Below, one piece after another: positions 31,779 through 43,898 of a stretch of DNA of 46,530 nt (positions are counted from its first letter, which is position 1; every line of letters starts with the position of its first letter). This DNA is from Deltaproteobacteria bacterium (lineage in GTDB: Bacteria > Desulfobacterota > Syntrophia > Syntrophales > Smithellaceae), in assembly GCA_022703375.1 (NCBI GenBank), contig JAKLDS010000015.1, forward strand, positions 1 to 46,530. Reading direction: 5' to 3'. The translations under genes and the position numbers were made by a program. A model generated the notes under the pieces. It searched no databases. It was given only the letters and a program-made list of their open reading frames with translations, and was not told the DNA's origin.

Positions 31779-34700
31779 CTATTTTCTATCCAGTTCCTTT
31801 CTTACAGCCATTCCCAGTTTTTCCAGGATATAGGGCTTTTTCAGGTATGCTCCCGCTCCCAAAGCTTGTGCTTGATTAACCCTCTCTGTTTCCGAAAAGC
31901 CACTGACAATTATCGCTTTTTGCTGCGGATAAATTTTCAGAACTTCTCTATAGGTATCAAGTCCATCCATGCCGGGGTACATGATCATATCCAGAACCAG
32001 AAGATTAACCTGATGCTCCTGCAGATAGGCGACTGCATCTTCGCCGCTCGCTGAAATCGCGACTTTATAATTCAGTTTGGTCAGCATTTCCGAGGCTAAT
32101 TCACGTTGCTCTCTTACATCATCCACTACCAGAACGGATTCTCCTTTCCCTTTATATGCTGAAACAGGCGCAGCAGCTGTTTCAGATGTTACTTCCTCCC
32201 TTGTTACCGGAAAATAAAGGGTAAAAGTGCTTCCTTTTCCTTCTTCGCTCTGCACATTAATATAGCCATGATGATCTTTCACCGTTCCCCAGATTACCGC
32301 CAGCCCCAACCCTGTCCCGCTTCTCCCCATAACTTTCTTCGTGTAAAAAGGCTCGAAAATTCTTTGCAGGTCTGCGGCAGGAATGCCCTGTCCCGTATCG
32401 GATACGGAAAGAATAACGTAGTCTCCCTCACGAATTTCGTCATACCCTGAAATTGGCTTGTCCAGATATTGATTGGCTGTTCTAATAATAACATCACCAC
32501 CGCCCGGCATAGCCTCCACCGCGTTCGAAACCAGGTTAAACATGGCCTTTCCCAGGTGGACGGAAGAACCGGAAATATTCAATAAATCAGGCTCCAGATC
32601 AAGCTTCATCCTCACGCCCGCATGATAAGAAGACAGTCTTTCCAACTCCAGCGATTTCTGAGAATCAAGAATTATCATATTCAGGTTAACAACTTGTTTG
32701 ACGGGAACACCTCTTCTGGCCAGCGTAAGCAAATCCTGGACTATCGCGGAAGCTTTTTCGCTGCCGGTCATAATTTTTTCCAGACGCGGCCTGATGGAAC
32801 TTGACGGAGCTACTTCATTAAGCAACAGTTCCGCATAACCAACGATAACACCAAGGACATTGTTCAGATCATGAGCAACACCACCGGCCAGTGTTCCCAG
32901 TGCCTCCATTTTCTCCGCCCGTTGCAGTCGCTCCGCCAGACAGCGTTTTTCCTCCTCCACCCGTTTGAGCTCTGTAATATCTGACGCAATAACACCTAAC
33001 CCTTCACCTGCCTTGAAAGATTTTAATATAAAATACAGGTTGCCGAATATTGGATGAGGGATATGATTTTCAATAGAAAACGGCTCTCCGGTTCTTATAA
33101 CTTCCAGGTGTTTATCGTATCTACCCGATTCCACAACGTCGGGAACTATCTCTCTGATGTCATGGCCGATTACTTCTTCTCTTTTTTTCCCTATTATTCT
33201 TAACCCATTTTCATTGATTTCCTGAAAATGTAATTTTGCATCTAGTAGATAAAAGCTGTCCGTCGCGGCATTCATAAAGCCGGATAACCTTTCCTGACTC
33301 TCCCGCAGCGCATCTTCCGCCCGCCGGCGTTCGGTGATATCGTTGCCAATCCCAATGAAAAAACCGCCTTCCTGCTCGTTTGTTGTTACCGCCACACCAT
33401 GCCATTCAACAAGAGATGTTTTGCCTGATTTACTGACAATTCGGTTTTCATGAACTACTATCGAACCTTTTTCGATTTTGTCAAATACCGAGGCCAGTTC
33501 TGCGCGGTCTTTTTCATGAACAAATGTTGTCAGATAGTCGGTGCTTTTAATCTCCTCCGCGGTGTATTCCAGAGCATTTAGAAGAGATCTGTTCATCAGC
33601 AGCGTCTTTCCGTCAAAACCAATTGCCACAATGAACGCCGGGGAATTATCAAAAAGCAGATTGTTAAAACGCATTTCCTTACGGAGCTTTTCCGCGCTCT
33701 TTTTTAAAGCTTCTTCCGCCTGTCTGCGGCCGGTGATGTCACGGTCAGAGCCTTGAAACCCGCTTATATTTCCCATACTGTCTAAAATCGGCACAGCATT
33801 GCTTTCCAGATAACGGTATGTTCCATCCTTGTGTTTCCAACGCAAGACAAGATTCGGCCAGCCGGTTTTCTGCGCCAGACAACGATTCAGCATTTCCCTT
33901 ACTCCGGGAAGGTCTTCTTCATGAAGCAGATTGATTATGTCGCGCCCGATGATTTCATCAGGACGATACCCCAGAATTTTCTCGACGGCGGGGTTGCAGA
34001 AGGTATGGCGTCTTTCAGTATCCATAGCCCAAATCCATTCCTGGCTTGTTGTAACAATGGATTTAAAACGTTCTTCGCTATCGTGCAGCGCCTGGAGGGC
34101 TGCCTCCCGTTGAAACTCTGCCTGCTTGCGGTCGGTGACATCCAATTCGATGCCATCCCAGATGACACTCCCACTCTTATTTGTATGGGGATAAGATACA
34201 AAACGGCGCCAGCGGATTTCACCGGAGGATAGCCTTATCGGCAAGTCAATATCAAGCTTGGATTTGGTTGCGTAAGCATGGGCTTCCGCTTCTGCTATTG
34301 CCGCACGGTGATTCTCATCAATTTGATTATAGAGCAGCGAAGGATTTCTCAGGACATCTTCAGCATTCAGGCCGTGGAGTTGCGAAATGGCCGGGCTCAA
34401 GTAGGTGAATTGCCTTTTTTGCCCATCAACACCGCTGTCGATTTGATAGATCATACCCCCAGCAAGATTTTCGCTCAATGCGCGCAACTTTTCTTCACTT
34501 TCGCGGAGCGCTTCGATTGCAGCTTCTTTCTGGAGTTCAGCCTGTTTGTGATCAGTGATGTCCTGGAGAAAACCTGTCCAGAGCACATCGCCGCTGGCAA
34601 CCGGCCGGGGCAGTGATTCGAAATGCACCCACACAATTTTTTTGCCGACACATAACCGTCCTTCCCACTGAAATGGAATCAATTTCGCGTTGGCTTCTAC

Positions 34701-35093
34701 ATTCTTCCGGGCAAACTCCGTCTTGTCTTCAGGATGAACCATCTCTTCGACGATGCCGGGTGTGCTTTCAAAAATCTCCCGGGTAATTCCCAGAATTTCA
34801 CAAAAACGCTCGCTGGCCAGCTCTATTGAATAAGGTGCTGATTCCAAAACATTCCAGGCATCCTTTTTCCATTTTTCTTTGGGAAATACCCTGATCCTAT
34901 ATATACCCGCCGGCTGAGCATTGACCATGTCTTGATATAAAGAGCGTTCCTGCTGCAGCAGTTCGAGCGCCGCCTCTCTCCGGGCTTCAGCCTGCCGTAG
35001 CTTTGCTCCTGCCTGCTCCAGCTTCCTGATTCTTTTCTTTAAGACGATTATTTCTGCGGTGAGTTCCTGCTTTGTTTTGGCTGCTTTTTCCAT
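31779..35093 (-). CDS. Five-PAS hybrid sensor histidine kinase with C-terminal receiver
   Basis: About 1104 residues, no transmembrane helices, so a cytosolic sensor. An N-terminal coiled coil (LTAEIIVLKKRIRKLE) is followed by five PAS modules. Each is joined by the usual linker ending in DITD/DVTD/DITE. HisKA follows with phospho-acceptor His near residue 741 (GGVAHDLNN), then a HATPase domain with a TGLGLAVIWG box. A receiver domain ends the protein, with Asp near 1035 (LVLDMIMYPG). ATG 35093 is chosen because GGGAG lies eight bases upstream; ATG 35207 would add 38 residues with no ribosome binding site. No cognate regulator is adjacent. Confidence 0.93.
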   Translation of the reverse strand: MEKAAKTKQELTAEIIVLKKRIRKLEQAGAKLRQAEARREAALELLQQERSLYQDMVNAQPAGIYRIRVFPKEKWKKDAWNVLESAPYSIELASERFCEILGITREIFESTPGIVEEMVHPEDKTEFARKNVEANAKLIPFQWEGRLCVGKKIVWVHFESLPRPVASGDVLWTGFLQDITDHKQAELQKEAAIEALRESEEKLRALSENLAGGMIYQIDSGVDGQKRQFTYLSPAISQLHGLNAEDVLRNPSLLYNQIDENHRAAIAEAEAHAYATKSKLDIDLPIRLSSGEIRWRRFVSYPHTNKSGSVIWDGIELDVTDRKQAEFQREAALQALHDSEERFKSIVTTSQEWIWAMDTERRHTFCNPAVEKILGYRPDEIIGRDIINLLHEEDLPGVREMLNRCLAQKTGWPNLVLRWKHKDGTYRYLESNAVPILDSMGNISGFQGSDRDITGRRQAEEALKKSAEKLRKEMRFNNLLFDNSPAFIVAIGFDGKTLLMNRSLLNALEYTAEEIKSTDYLTTFVHEKDRAELASVFDKIEKGSIVVHENRIVSKSGKTSLVEWHGVAVTTNEQEGGFFIGIGNDITERRRAEDALRESQERLSGFMNAATDSFYLLDAKLHFQEINENGLRIIGKKREEVIGHDIREIVPDVVESGRYDKHLEVIRTGEPFSIENHIPHPIFGNLYFILKSFKAGEGLGVIASDITELKRVEEEKRCLAERLQRAEKMEALGTLAGGVAHDLNNVLGVIVGYAELLLNEVAPSSSIRPRLEKIMTGSEKASAIVQDLLTLARRGVPVKQVVNLNMIILDSQKSLELERLSSYHAGVRMKLDLEPDLLNISGSSVHLGKAMFNLVSNAVEAMPGGGDVIIRTANQYLDKPISGYDEIREGDYVILSVSDTGQGIPAADLQRIFEPFYTKKVMGRSGTGLGLAVIWGTVKDHHGYINVQSEEGKGSTFTLYFPVTREEVTSETAAAPVSAYKGKGESVLVVDDVREQRELASEMLTKLNYKVAISASGEDAVAYLQEHQVNLLVLDMIMYPGMDGLDTYREVLKIYPQQKAIIVSGFSETERVNQAQALGAGAYLKKPYILEKLGMAVRKELDRK

Positions 35094-35304
35094 AACTTTG
35101 ACTCCCGGAACCACTAGCTTCTGTAAGCTGATAATTCCCCGCTGGCCGTTTTTTGAAATTTTAACACAGTAGCAATAGTCAAAGCAAAATATTTTTACAA
35201 CAGCCATATTGGTTTATCTCTTTAAAAAAAACAATAAAATACGGACAATATATTAATAATGACATTGATGATAATTTCTGGTATATTACTTTTAGTGTAA
35301 CAGG

Positions 35305-35334: not shown

Positions 35335-35356
35335 TATTGCATAATAAGGAGTGTAT

Positions 35357-36784
35357 ATGAATATTCTTATCGTCTGCGGATTAATCATTGTTGTAGCGCT
35401 GGTCGTTAATGTGATTCTGACCGCGCTATACGGGAAAAGCAAGCCGACTAAACTTTTTCATTCCATTGCCGGCGGACTGCTGGTTACTGTTTTCGCTTTT
35501 TATTTTCTGGGTGTTTACGGCGCGGGCAATATCATCGTACTGGCTGTTGTCTTTGTGGTTCTGGTGGCGGCTGTGACAGCCAATCTGATTTATGTCAACG
35601 GCAAATTAACCAAGCCTCTGGGCCGGATTGCCTACGGAGTCAGTGAAGGCGGCAACCAGGTGGCGCTGGCCTCCCAGAAAGTCGCCAAGGCCAGTGATTC
35701 CCTGGCCTCCGGAGCGGCAGCCCAGTCTTCCGGCCTGGAAGAAAGTTCCGCTTCTCTGGAAGAAATGGCCTCGATGATTGCCGTCAGTTCGGAAAATGCG
35801 CAGCAGGGCAGCAGGCTGACCAAGGATGCGGTGAAGATAGTCGAGAATGTTGACAAGCACATGGAGCAGATGATTGAGGCCATCAATGAAATCACCCGTT
35901 CCAGCGAACAGACCAGCAAGATAATAAAAACCATTGACGAGATAGCTTTTCAGACCAATCTGCTGGCGCTCAATGCCGCGGTGGAGGCGGCGCGGGCCGG
36001 TGAAGCCGGAGCGGGATTTGCGGTGGTGGCCAACGAAGTGCGTAATCTGGCCATGCGGGCGGCGGAGGCGGCGAAGAATACCGGCGTTCTCATCGAGAAT
36101 ACGGTGAAGGTCGTGAAGCGCGGCCGGGAAATAACGATGGAAACCAAGCAGGCTTTCGGCCAGAATGTCGAATATGCCAATAAAATGTGCACCTTGATTG
36201 ACGAGATAGCGGAAGCCAGCCGGGAGCAGTCGGAAGGCATCAGCCAGATTAACATTGCCGTGGCCGAGATGGACAAGATTACGCAAAAGACAGCCGCCAG
36301 CGCGGAGGAATTATCCGCGGAAGCCAAGGGGACAAACGCGCAGGCCGAAAAGATGAAAGCCCACATTAATAATTTTATCGGCCTGGTCGGTGTCGGCTCC
36401 AAAGGAACAATCAAGGATTGTAAAGATCTTGTCAAACAGGCCAGAAAGCTTGTTAACACAGTCGGTATGCAAAGAGCTCTCGTGGAGTTGGGAAATTCCG
36501 ACGGCAAGTACGTTTATCTCGACACCTATATCTCGGTTTATGATTTAAACAGCTTTGTCGTAATGCATCCCTATAATAAGGCGCTCATCGGTTTAGACGG
36601 CAAAACAATCAAAGACACTAACGGTAAAACGTTTGTTAAGGATATTGTTGATATAGCAAGAGCAAAGGGTTCCGGCTATGTTGATTATACCTTTATGAAT
36701 CCCATCACCCAGAAGGTGGAATGGAAAACGGCCTATTTTGAAAAAGTCAATGATGTTGTCTTTTCTTCAGGCGCGTATAAGTAG
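35357..36784 (+). CDS. Methyl-accepting chemotaxis protein with C-terminal Cache-like domain
   Basis: 475 residues. Three hydrophobic segments (about 1-24, 34-56, 58-82) are followed, without a clear HAMP, by the chemoreceptor coiled coil. Its conserved tip is at about 194-232 (DEIAFQTNLLALNAAVEAAR, then VVANEVRNLA). After the signalling domain, residues about 354-475 look like a small Cache domain: helix VKQARKLVNTVG, then VYDLNSFVVMHPYN, GKTFVKDIVDIARAKGSGYVDYTF and WKTAYFEKV. Cache domains normally sit outside the membrane before the signalling part. AAGGAG lies five bases before ATG 35357; GTG 35351 overlaps it and is rejected. Confidence 0.92.
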   Translation: MNILIVCGLIIVVALVVNVILTALYGKSKPTKLFHSIAGGLLVTVFAFYFLGVYGAGNIIVLAVVFVVLVAAVTANLIYVNGKLTKPLGRIAYGVSEGGNQVALASQKVAKASDSLASGAAAQSSGLEESSASLEEMASMIAVSSENAQQGSRLTKDAVKIVENVDKHMEQMIEAINEITRSSEQTSKIIKTIDEIAFQTNLLALNAAVEAARAGEAGAGFAVVANEVRNLAMRAAEAAKNTGVLIENTVKVVKRGREITMETKQAFGQNVEYANKMCTLIDEIAEASREQSEGISQINIAVAEMDKITQKTAASAEELSAEAKGTNAQAEKMKAHINNFIGLVGVGSKGTIKDCKDLVKQARKLVNTVGMQRALVELGNSDGKYVYLDTYISVYDLNSFVVMHPYNKALIGLDGKTIKDTNGKTFVKDIVDIARAKGSGYVDYTFMNPITQKVEWKTAYFEKVNDVVFSSGAYK

Positions 36785-41625: not shown

Positions 41626-41675
41626 GGACAAACAAACAATATCTTTTTAATGAAGTAAAAGAAAGCAAATTGGCA

Positions 41676-43898
41676 ATGAGCAATCCTTTGCCCCCCCATA
41701 TCAAAAATAATCTTTTTATTACCATTGTAATATTTATCGCCGCTTCCGTTCTGGTCGCTATTATTGGCTACAATTTTTATCAAAATCAGAAGAAATATAT
41801 CAGTGCCAGCTCCCAGAAGCAGCTGATGGCCATTGCCGATTTGCAAGTCCGGGAAATAAGCAATTGGCGAAATGAACGTATCGGTGATGCTCAGGTAATA
41901 ATAAATAATGATGTTTTCACGAAGAGCACAATTAAATATCTTAATGATCCATCGGCCTCTGAAGCGAAAAATATTATTTTGTCATCGCTCAAAGCAACAC
42001 AAAAATCATATCAGTACAAAAATATTTTGCTGTTAGATAGAAACAAAAAAGTCAGATTAGCTCTTCATAAATTTGTTGCTGATTATAGTTTGATTCATTC
42101 CAGTGTTATTGATGAAGCTATAAAAAAGAGGGGCATCGTCTTCGGAGATTTTTACAGGGAAAACAAGAATGGCTCTGTTTATTTGACAATGGCTTTCCCC
42201 ATTATAAATGCACTGGGGAAAAATGCGCCGATAATCGGCACTATAGTAATTGTCCTTGACCCCACTTTACGCCTATATCCGTCAATTAAAGAATGGCCGC
42301 TGCCCACCTCGACGGGTGAAACGCTTTTAGTACGTCGTGAAAGCAATGAAATCGTTTATCTTAATGAATTGCGTCATGATAAAAACAAGCCGCTGACGAT
42401 CAGGCTGCCGCTTAGCGAAGCCGATCTGCCGGCAGTTAAGGCTGTCCTGGGGCAAAAAGGGATTGTGGAGGGGCGGGATTACCGGAAAAAAAATGTTTTG
42501 GCGGCAATCGGATCGGTACCGGATTCTCCATGGTTTTTTGTTGTCAAAATTGATGGCGAAGAAATATATGCTTCGCTGCGTTTACGTTACTGGGTAACTC
42601 TTTCATTTGTCGTGATCGGCATACTGATATTCGGTATCATTGTCGCTTACATCTGGCGCGATCAACAGGCCAGATTTTACCGCAAGCAATATGAAACCGA
42701 GTATAAAAGAGCTTTTTTATACGCGCGCGGCCTTATCGAAACCAGCCTCGATCCTTTGGTCACAATCAGTGCCGAAGGAAAAATCATGGATGTCAACAAG
42801 TCAACGGAACTGGTTACGGGCTTATCCAGAGAAAAGCTGATCGGCAGCCGCTTTTCCGATTATTTCACTGAACCGGAAAAAGCCGCAGGGGGATACAAAC
42901 TGGCCTTTGAAAAAGGTCTTATCCGCGATTATCCTCTGTCCATAAGGAATATTTCCGGCCAGGCAACAGATGTTTTATACAATGCATCGGTATACAAAAA
43001 TGAAAGCGGCGAAGTTCAGGGTATATTTGCGGCAGCCCGCGATATTACCGAATTGAAACGAATAGAAAAAGAGTTAAAGAAGGCTCATGATGAATTGGAA
43101 TTGCGCGTGGAAGAAAGAACAAATGAATTGCAGAAAACCAACGAATATCTACAGGAGGAAATCAGAGAAAGGAAAGTAGCCGAAAAACTGATTGATTTGA
43201 GAACACGGCTTTTGGAGGAAACAAATAAAGAGCTGGAAAGTTTCAGCTATTCCGTTTCGCACGATCTGCGCGCGCCCCTGCGGGCTGTTGACGGCTATGC
43301 CCGAATGATTCTGCGCGATCAGGCCGATAAGCTTGATCACGACGCCCGACGTAAATTTGAATTGATCAGAAGCAATACCCAAATGATGGGCAAGTTAATT
43401 GACGATTTGCTTTCGTTTTCCCGGCTGGGTCGCATGGAAATCAATATGACCAGGCTGGATATGGAAGGGCTGATCAACGATGTATGGAAGGAATTACAGA
43501 TCATTAATCCGGAGCGCAAACTTGATCTTAATATTACAAATGTACCCGCCGGCAACGGCGACCGCACATTAATCAAGCAGGTATATTCCAATCTTTTTTC
43601 CAATGCCGTCAAGTTTACGAAAAACAGAAAAAACACCAGTATCGAAACCGGCGGATATGTTAAAGGCCAGGAAAATATATATTATGTAAAAGATAATGGT
43701 GTTGGTTTTGACATGGATTACTATGACAAATTGTTCGGCGTTTTTCAGCGCCTGCACAGCGCAGACGAATTTGAAGGAACGGGCGTCGGTTTGGCTATCG
43801 TGCAGCGCATTATTCACAAGCATGGCGGCCGGGTTTGGGCTGAAGGAAAGGCTGAAGAAGGAGCAACTTTCTATTTCACATTATCGAGGAAGGATTAA
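41676..43898 (+). CDS. Membrane sensor histidine kinase (Cache-like, PAS, bacteriophytochrome-type kinase core)
   Basis: About 740 residues. TM1 (about 10-32) is followed by an extracytoplasmic sensor (about 40-300) with Cache-like features (QYKNILLLDRNKKVRLALHK, then GDFYRENKNGSVYLTMAFPI). TM2 (about 308-328) leads to one PAS domain (LETSLDPLVTISAEG), a coiled coil, HisKA with H529 (SYSVSHDLRAPLRAVDG) and a HATPase domain (GTGVGLAIVQRIIHKHGG). The HisKA type is the one usually paired with Rcp1-like regulators, and such a gene follows eight bases downstream. ATG 41676 is used; TTG 41670 is an alternative. Confidence 0.93.
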   Translation: MSNPLPPHIKNNLFITIVIFIAASVLVAIIGYNFYQNQKKYISASSQKQLMAIADLQVREISNWRNERIGDAQVIINNDVFTKSTIKYLNDPSASEAKNIILSSLKATQKSYQYKNILLLDRNKKVRLALHKFVADYSLIHSSVIDEAIKKRGIVFGDFYRENKNGSVYLTMAFPIINALGKNAPIIGTIVIVLDPTLRLYPSIKEWPLPTSTGETLLVRRESNEIVYLNELRHDKNKPLTIRLPLSEADLPAVKAVLGQKGIVEGRDYRKKNVLAAIGSVPDSPWFFVVKIDGEEIYASLRLRYWVTLSFVVIGILIFGIIVAYIWRDQQARFYRKQYETEYKRAFLYARGLIETSLDPLVTISAEGKIMDVNKSTELVTGLSREKLIGSRFSDYFTEPEKAAGGYKLAFEKGLIRDYPLSIRNISGQATDVLYNASVYKNESGEVQGIFAAARDITELKRIEKELKKAHDELELRVEERTNELQKTNEYLQEEIRERKVAEKLIDLRTRLLEETNKELESFSYSVSHDLRAPLRAVDGYARMILRDQADKLDHDARRKFELIRSNTQMMGKLIDDLLSFSRLGRMEINMTRLDMEGLINDVWKELQIINPERKLDLNITNVPAGNGDRTLIKQVYSNLFSNAVKFTKNRKNTSIETGGYVKGQENIYYVKDNGVGFDMDYYDKLFGVFQRLHSADEFEGTGVGLAIVQRIIHKHGGRVWAEGKAEEGATFYFTLSRKD

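Follow-up and report, generated by a model that had tools for sequence, protein, structure and literature searches.

A membrane-anchored chemoreceptor from a Smithellaceae genome with a C-terminal, apparently cytosolic Cache domain

Analysis of the window, the whole stretch of 46,530 nucleotides that forms positions 1 to 46,530 of contig JAKLDS010000015.1 in the Deltaproteobacteria bacterium assembly GCA_022703375.1, indicated that one of its genes probably codes for a membrane-anchored, HAMP-less chemoreceptor that bears on its tail a cytosolic sensor for C2–C3 carboxylates. The argument is carried by the order of the domains, the fold predicted for the C-terminal Cache domain, the lack of a HAMP match, the retention of carboxylate-contact residues, the recurrence of the layout, and a sharp switch in sequence between two paralogues. 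A receptor of this design probably monitors the cell's own small organic acids, not those of its surroundings.

The relevant reading frame runs uninterrupted through 475 codons to its stop, with a good ribosome-binding site, AAGGAG, ahead of the ATG (Table 1). Pfam placed MCPsignal at residues 154–309 (E 6e-43; 147 bits against a cut-off of 34.6) and sCache_2 at residues 372–465 (E 2.5e-14; 54 bits where the cut-off is 25), with a dCache_2 match of 40 bits in the same protein: the sensor domain, residues 352–475, is thus C-terminal to the signalling domain. Residues 93–340 correspond to positions 266–513 of the NCBIfam model NF011622 (methyl-accepting chemotaxis protein II), and because the matched stretches are of equal length the hairpin is taken to be of ordinary length. 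The gap between membrane helix 3 (TM3) and the start of this match is about a dozen residues and therefore too short for a HAMP domain, and HAMP was absent from the 14 Pfam families that matched the receptor up to E = 1. A prior sequence-only reading, which had reported no clear HAMP, was borne out in this respect, as it was in describing three hydrophobic segments at the start of the protein, no obvious periplasmic loop, and no membrane segment after the signalling tip: the best 19-residue windows lay at residues 3–21, 33–51 and 59–77, a spacing that leaves no loop big enough for a sensor, and the same window rule detected nothing beyond residue 84. Two more sensory genes border this region: one for a hybrid histidine kinase that combines a receiver with several PAS domains (31779–35207, minus strand), the other for a histidine kinase in which a PAS domain accompanies a sub-threshold match to dCache_1 (41670–43898, plus strand).

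Table 1. Features of the chemoreceptor gene, in window coordinates
Feature	Positions	Strand	Basis
Shine-Dalgarno-like AAGGAG before ATG	35346..35351	+	direct reading
Chemoreceptor gene, 475 codons + stop	35357..36784	+	ORF, Pfam
Membrane helix 1, residues 2–25, N-terminus predicted outside	35360..35431	+	hydropathy, AlphaFold2, charges
Predicted cytosolic loop GKSKPTKLFH, residues 26–35, positive in related receptors	35432..35461	+	charges
Membrane helix 2, about residues 36–55	35462..35521	+	hydropathy, AlphaFold2
Membrane helix 3, about residues 59–80, straight into coiled coil, no HAMP	35531..35596	+	Pfam, hydropathy, AlphaFold2
MCP signalling hairpin, residues 81–344	35597..36388	+	Pfam, NCBIfam, AlphaFold2
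Signalling tip EIAFQTNLLALNAAVEAARAGEAGAGFAVVANEVR, residues 195–229	35939..36043	+	sequence; conserved in alignment
Short linker, residues 345–351	36389..36409	+	AlphaFold2
C-terminal single Cache domain, residues 352–475	36410..36781	+	Pfam, alignment, AlphaFold2, fold comparison
Codons 354–355, end of near-identity with C69 paralogue	36416..36421	+	codon comparison
Tyr391, equivalent of PscD Tyr90 (carboxylate contact)	36527..36529	+	alignment, counts, PMC5062169 (in part)
His404, equivalent of PscD His103	36566..36568	+	alignment, counts, PMC5062169 (in part)
Tyr444, equivalent of PscD Tyr143	36686..36688	+	alignment, counts, PMC5062169 (in part)
Lys457, equivalent of PscD Lys156	36725..36727	+	alignment, counts, PMC5062169 (in part)

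Structure prediction of the full receptor with AlphaFold2 (32 sequences) returned helices at residues 2–25, 29–54, 59–213 and 215–344, the last two forming the antiparallel hairpin expected of a methyl-accepting chemotaxis protein (MCP) around an ordinary, conserved MCP tip, followed from residue 352 by the Cache domain with block-mean pLDDT values of 82–97; the pTM of 0.44 makes the placement of hairpin against Cache in this model unreliable. A Cache-only model (79 sequences) reached a pLDDT of 92.8, and its best structural matches were the single-Cache chemoreceptor sensors 4k08, 2qhk, 5g4y and 4exo: Foldseek returned 4k08, 5g4y and 4exo at E 1e-9 to 5e-9, with corresponding VIA Z values of 17.2, 16.6 and 15.9. 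Profile, prediction and both fold comparisons hence agree with the initial assignment of residues from about 354 to 475 to a Cache domain. In the AlphaFold2 model, helices 352–369 and 371–378 come after the hairpin linker and are not continuous with a membrane helix, unlike those of a usual sCache_2 domain, a difference that speaks against a typical sCache_2 receptor and not against the fold.

Lysine and arginine residues, counted in five full-length receptors of this type, numbered 3–6 in loop 1, 0–1 in loop 2 and 2–3 after TM3, within windows of 15, 8 and 18 residues respectively that are short and were placed by a single motif. Of the five Cache-less relatives typed, three conform to this motif and charge pattern (loop 1, 3–4; loop 2, 0; post-TM3, 1–3); the misfitting L083 and L084, two of the ten typed N-termini, were left out of the charge count. 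By the positive-inside rule this pattern would put the N-terminus outside and both hairpin and Cache inside, and a cytosolic Cache is argued for also by the lack of any later membrane segment and by the order HAMP, MCPsignal, Cache in relatives such as L153 and L190. Prediction thereby favours the original proposal of a Cache facing the cytoplasm over the extracytoplasmic location that is customary, though not compulsory, for sCache_2. According to Pfam, L153, L183, L190 and L199, all from Burkholderiales, carry HAMP, MCPsignal and then Cache, the HAMP score being at the cut-off in L183 and below it in L199, while a further Burkholderiales relative, L188, has MCPsignal and Cache without HAMP. 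L190 and L199 additionally contain hydrophobic segments near residues 30–50 and 335–345, and hence have a separate region outside.

The opposite topology, with the N-terminus inside and the hairpin and Cache in the periplasm, is compatible with an odd number of helices and would suit the apparent export of the closest Cache relatives; this arrangement is nevertheless highly improbable, since each of the five full-length receptors counted is rich in lysine and arginine in loop 1 and the post-TM3 segment but not in the short loop 2, and since the signalling tip is that of an ordinary MCP. With hairpin and Cache predicted to be cytosolic, the Cache should lie close to the membrane, because the two hairpin arms are of similar length (approximately 133 residues from TM3 to the tip, and 130 back).

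The layout is not confined to the window. MCPsignal matched 12 times in the same genome, 11 of the matches exceeding the cut-off, and four genes there have the MCP-then-Cache layout: the window gene (contig C28), those on C33 and C1, whose products share 47–49% identity with the window receptor, and a C69 fragment comprising the last 191 residues of a fourth such receptor whose gene is cut by the contig end. Two genes with the same layout were found in G102 (record JAFGGB01), another metagenome-assembled genome (MAG) of the same order, and in the C33, C1 and both G102 proteins Pfam again placed MCPsignal and then sCache_2 over the cut-off. A Cache-only search of 155 genomes of the class gave a match at E <= 1e-12 in 50, mostly in short open frames, with fused genes only in the window's genome and G102. 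Further afield, named genomes were scanned with an alignment of four Cache rows. Of the 95 loci detected, 80 were retained: an MCP tip preceded the Cache in 31, the Cache stood alone in 43, and six were otherwise arranged. Two of the 31 belong to G102; the 29 further loci come mainly from Oxalobacteraceae, Comamonadaceae and other Burkholderiales, together with one record labelled Chitinophaga. The fused gene in that record (L211, titled Chitinophaga pinensis MAG) is nested in a Comamonadaceae clade and probably represents a contaminating contig or a transfer.

A full-length profile search of 395 genomes of the phylum recovered the whole layout only in the window's genome, the next best match (4.6e-122) being without the Cache part; this is a weak lower bound, as at most four candidates were scored per genome and G102 was missed despite its layout. 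The long frames among the class matches (at least 350 aa, E <= 1e-12), classified with the exception of G083:C372, proved to be stand-alone proteins in extended frames (G144, G097 on C85 and C20, G057:C1, G046:C79), larger sensory proteins with the Cache ahead of other domains (G003, G018, G024, G120) or malic-enzyme fusions (G049, G088). A viral origin found no support: in two scans of viral_contigs the Cache had no relatives and the MCP part alone was matched, at a single locus, and phages gave no match. No plasmid record covered 80% of the receptor in one place, a Pantoea match in the plasmid search extending to residue 404; two plasmid MCPs, from Caballeronia and Paroceanicella, were matched by Cache queries near the N-terminus, which is the ordinary arrangement.

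This recurrence bears directly on whether the assembly or gene calling could have wrongly joined an MCP gene to an adjoining Cache gene. The window's genome is in 120 contigs and the C69 copy stops at a contig edge inside near-identical DNA, yet such an artefact is scarcely credible when C33, C1, G102 and named strains of Herbaspirillum, Noviherbaspirillum and Ramlibacter have the same layout and the window reading frame passes through without a stop.

The pocket of the Cache domain was compared with that of PscD, for which the part of PMC5062169 consulted describes Tyr90, His103, Tyr143 and Lys156 as holding the carboxylate oxygens. These align with Y391, H404, Y444 and K457 of the receptor. 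At position 391, five of the six fused domains of the delta type have Tyr and one has Phe, whereas 404, 444 and 457 are retained in all six, and across 150 Cache domains Tyr occupies 391 in 148 and Lys occupies 457 in 145. The histidine at 404 is present in 6/6 delta-type fused domains, in 13/15 of the Oxalobacteraceae/Ramlibacter type, in 0/15 of the Comamonadaceae type, and in 84 of 94 stand-alone Cache domains with signal-like N-termini. Two Trp and a Phe that complete the propionate pocket of PscD (Trp92, Trp145 and Phe126) are replaced here by Ser393, Phe446 and Val427, so that ligand specificity should differ from that of PscD. Tyr395 of the receptor aligns with PscD N94, a position occupied in the V. 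parahaemolyticus Cache, according to the same partial source (PMC5062169), by a Tyr in contact with pyruvate. The best guess from these residues is that the Cache binds a C2–C3 carboxylate of the acetate, pyruvate, propionate or lactate class. Carboxylate binding is not to be taken as general to the fused domains, because the C69 paralogue has Phe at 391 and Ser at 395, and because all 15 domains of the Comamonadaceae type are without the histidine.

Codon comparison of the window gene with C69 disclosed an abrupt change at the Cache boundary. Over codons 283–354, 71 of 72 amino acids are identical and the same codon is used at 67 of the 71; over codons 355–475 the equivalent figures are 60 of 119 and 24 of 60, and the 3' flanks have no evident similarity. 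Near-identity accordingly ends where the Cache begins, C69 carrying a different Cache, and at that point the GC3 of the window gene declines from 0.65 to 0.46. On its left side the comparison is bounded by the contig edge that cuts C69. The plainest reading of this pattern is that a recent recombination joined one signalling module to two Cache cassettes.

Outside the fused receptors, the closest Cache domains are stand-alone proteins of about 150–216 aa with signal-peptide-like N-termini, classed as exported by a hydropathy rule rather than a signal-peptide predictor. Their alignment to the window receptor begins at about its residue 348, right after the signal-peptide-like segment; the Cache here is a relative of the mature part of exported proteins without the signal peptide, which argues for a cytosolic location. 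Of 94 rows, 27 had the stand-alone Cache gene immediately ahead of an MCP gene on the same strand, and none had it immediately behind one. The scoring used stop-to-stop frames and gaps of up to 100 nt, and 1 kb or more of DNA could be read in 86 and 84 cases respectively; the rows are not independent, having been collected by similarity and in part from shared loci. L237/L250, where a Cache follows an MCP with three membrane helices (3-TM), falls outside this count. L250 (G288:C30:1-11706), a 3-TM MCP with a stand-alone Cache gene immediately after it, is a split form of the window's architecture; it forms part of a che cluster in G288 with the order CheW, 3-TM MCP, stand-alone Cache, 4HB-HAMP MCP, CheR, CheD, response regulator, CheX, CheB and CheA, and its MCP-then-Cache order is the arrangement that a simple fusion would need. 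In G049, a stand-alone Cache and an MCP precede CheR and CheA.

Other arrangements of the same domain were also recorded. At L174 (1064-3313) a stand-alone Cache is encoded immediately ahead of an MCP that has a Cache at its own C-terminus, and L096 (G008:C33:29500-40000) has five tandem stand-alone Cache genes between two MCP genes. The domain occupies the C-terminus of an apparent ABC-type substrate-binding protein in L186 and of other frames of 415–512 aa in L071, L073 and L074. In L095 (G049:C14) and L127 (G088:C129), a Cache without a signal-like N-terminus, and with the four carboxylate-contact residues kept, stands at the N-terminus of a malic enzyme, where it is probably cytosolic and possibly an allosteric domain.

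Pairing of Cache and MCP genes suggests a source for C-terminal Cache sensors, and we infer that the tail arose by fusion with an exported Cache. A quick tree of 150 Cache domains distributed the 36 fused rows over three clades, requiring three changes, but several separate fusions are not claimed because a tree with the fused rows forced into one clade is not rejected (AU p 0.86) and scores higher. A tail resembling VIPFDDDxFKDF ends 14 of the 19 MCP frames opened, but it is clear in only 1 of the 11 receptors of the window's genome, for which a replacement of this tail by the Cache is therefore a weak proposal. Tentatively, and with the odds somewhat against so broad a scheme, it may be that exported, carboxylate-binding Cache proteins, serving MCPs in the periplasm, were captured as interchangeable cassettes for the cytosolic tails of 3-TM receptors and became sensors of metabolites inside the cell, that recombination exactly at the boundary within one genome widens the range of internal ligands recognised and leaves the signalling module unchanged, and that the same Cache family also serves as a cytosolic regulatory domain of malic enzyme (L095, L127).

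The window's genome, which is 95% complete, contains two CheW genes in addition to the 11 MCPs that exceed the cut-off; they are located on C70 and C77 (L220, L221), each near an MCP gene, while neither the CheA marker nor a CheR match was found in its 120 contigs. Twelve chosen genomes, the window's included, yielded the CheA marker in 10 and CheR in 11, G102 having both; the marker was present in 10 of the 30 nearest genomes. An assembly gap over a single che cluster would explain the absence of both genes, with their loss as a possible alternative. At positions taken as equivalent to the methylation sites of Tar, placed by the Tar site numbers and the offset from the NF011622 match, E129, E136 and E318 are present, with Ala at 122.

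In the proposed mechanism, three helices would anchor the receptor in the membrane with the N-terminus out, a block that may itself sense, and TM3 would feed directly into the cytosolic MCP hairpin, whose returning helix would lead through the short linker to the single Cache. Ligand bound there may act on the C-terminal hairpin helix near the adaptation region with no crossing of the membrane; the shifted helix would alter control of CheA through CheW, and the output would be taxis steered by the level of an internal metabolite. The three membrane helices might instead be the real sensor, of membrane state, an ion gradient or a membrane partner, with the Cache as a secondary tuner or a non-binding module for dimerisation or placement. 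Consistent with this, similar 3-TM starts occur without a Cache in L085, L086 and L237 and in matches from G192, G336 and G312 that span residues 3–5 to 352–360 in frames of 397–444 aa, the Trp positions of the pocket are altered, and C69 differs at 391 and 395; it is nonetheless unlikely, as a purely structural role would not require Y391, H404, Y444 and K457 to be near-invariant in the delta-type fused and most stand-alone domains. A carboxylate-sensing tail is accordingly retained as the preferred reading.

Among the extracytoplasmic sensors of prokaryotes, Cache domains predominate, and the usual account of how they signal relies on the membrane helix after the domain, a mechanism that cannot apply to an apparently cytosolic Cache with an intact carboxylate signature lying behind the hairpin. 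TlpD is an example of a chemoreceptor with a C-terminal ligand-binding domain. The consulted part of PMC7390727 describes a poorly characterised chemoreceptor subfamily with a sensor as C-terminal extension, drawn from at least 17 Pfam domain types of which CZB is by far the commonest, and archaeal receptors also have C-terminal sensor domains according to the portion of PMC9680633 available. C-terminal sensors on chemoreceptors and intracellular Cache domains each have precedent and are known already; among the matches listed in the open-access literature, no description of a C-terminal Cache on a chemoreceptor was found in titles or abstracts. To these precedents the present case adds that the two are combined and the carboxylate signature is retained, that the domain is linked to stand-alone Cache proteins whose genes pair with those of MCPs, and that cassettes switch at the domain boundary. 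The receptor offers a compact test system for two questions: how a C-terminal sensor drives a chemoreceptor within that poorly characterised subfamily, and how internal acid levels may guide bacterial movement.

Like the receptors with C-terminal ligand-binding domains in PMC7390727, as far as the part consulted goes, the window receptor has its sensor after the MCP signalling domain, where it would be cytosolic; it differs in that this sensor is a Cache and in its anchoring by three membrane helices. Topology class III, in the available part of PMC8396549, places the sensor before HAMP and the signalling domain. The window receptor resembles that class in having membrane helices without an extracytoplasmic sensor, the sensor being in the membrane or cytosol, and differs from class III/IIIc (cytosolic sensor, then HAMP and signalling domain) in having no HAMP and the sensor last. 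In comparison with the intracellular Cache domains described in the partial accounts consulted, which belong to the same superfamily and lie inside the cell, the Cache families differ, sCache_2 being principally extracellular there. Its closest domains, the stand-alone exported-type Cache proteins beside MCP genes, share homology starting after the signal-like segment but are separate proteins, the domain in the window receptor being joined to the end that lies in the cytosol. The fold is that of PscD (5g4y), Adeh_3718 (4k08) and the V. parahaemolyticus MCP (4exo/2qhk), and four carboxylate-bonding residues are shared with PscD; PscD and Adeh_3718 are, in the descriptions partly consulted, periplasmic or membrane-helix-flanked sensors, whereas the Cache here is C-terminal and differs at three other pocket positions.
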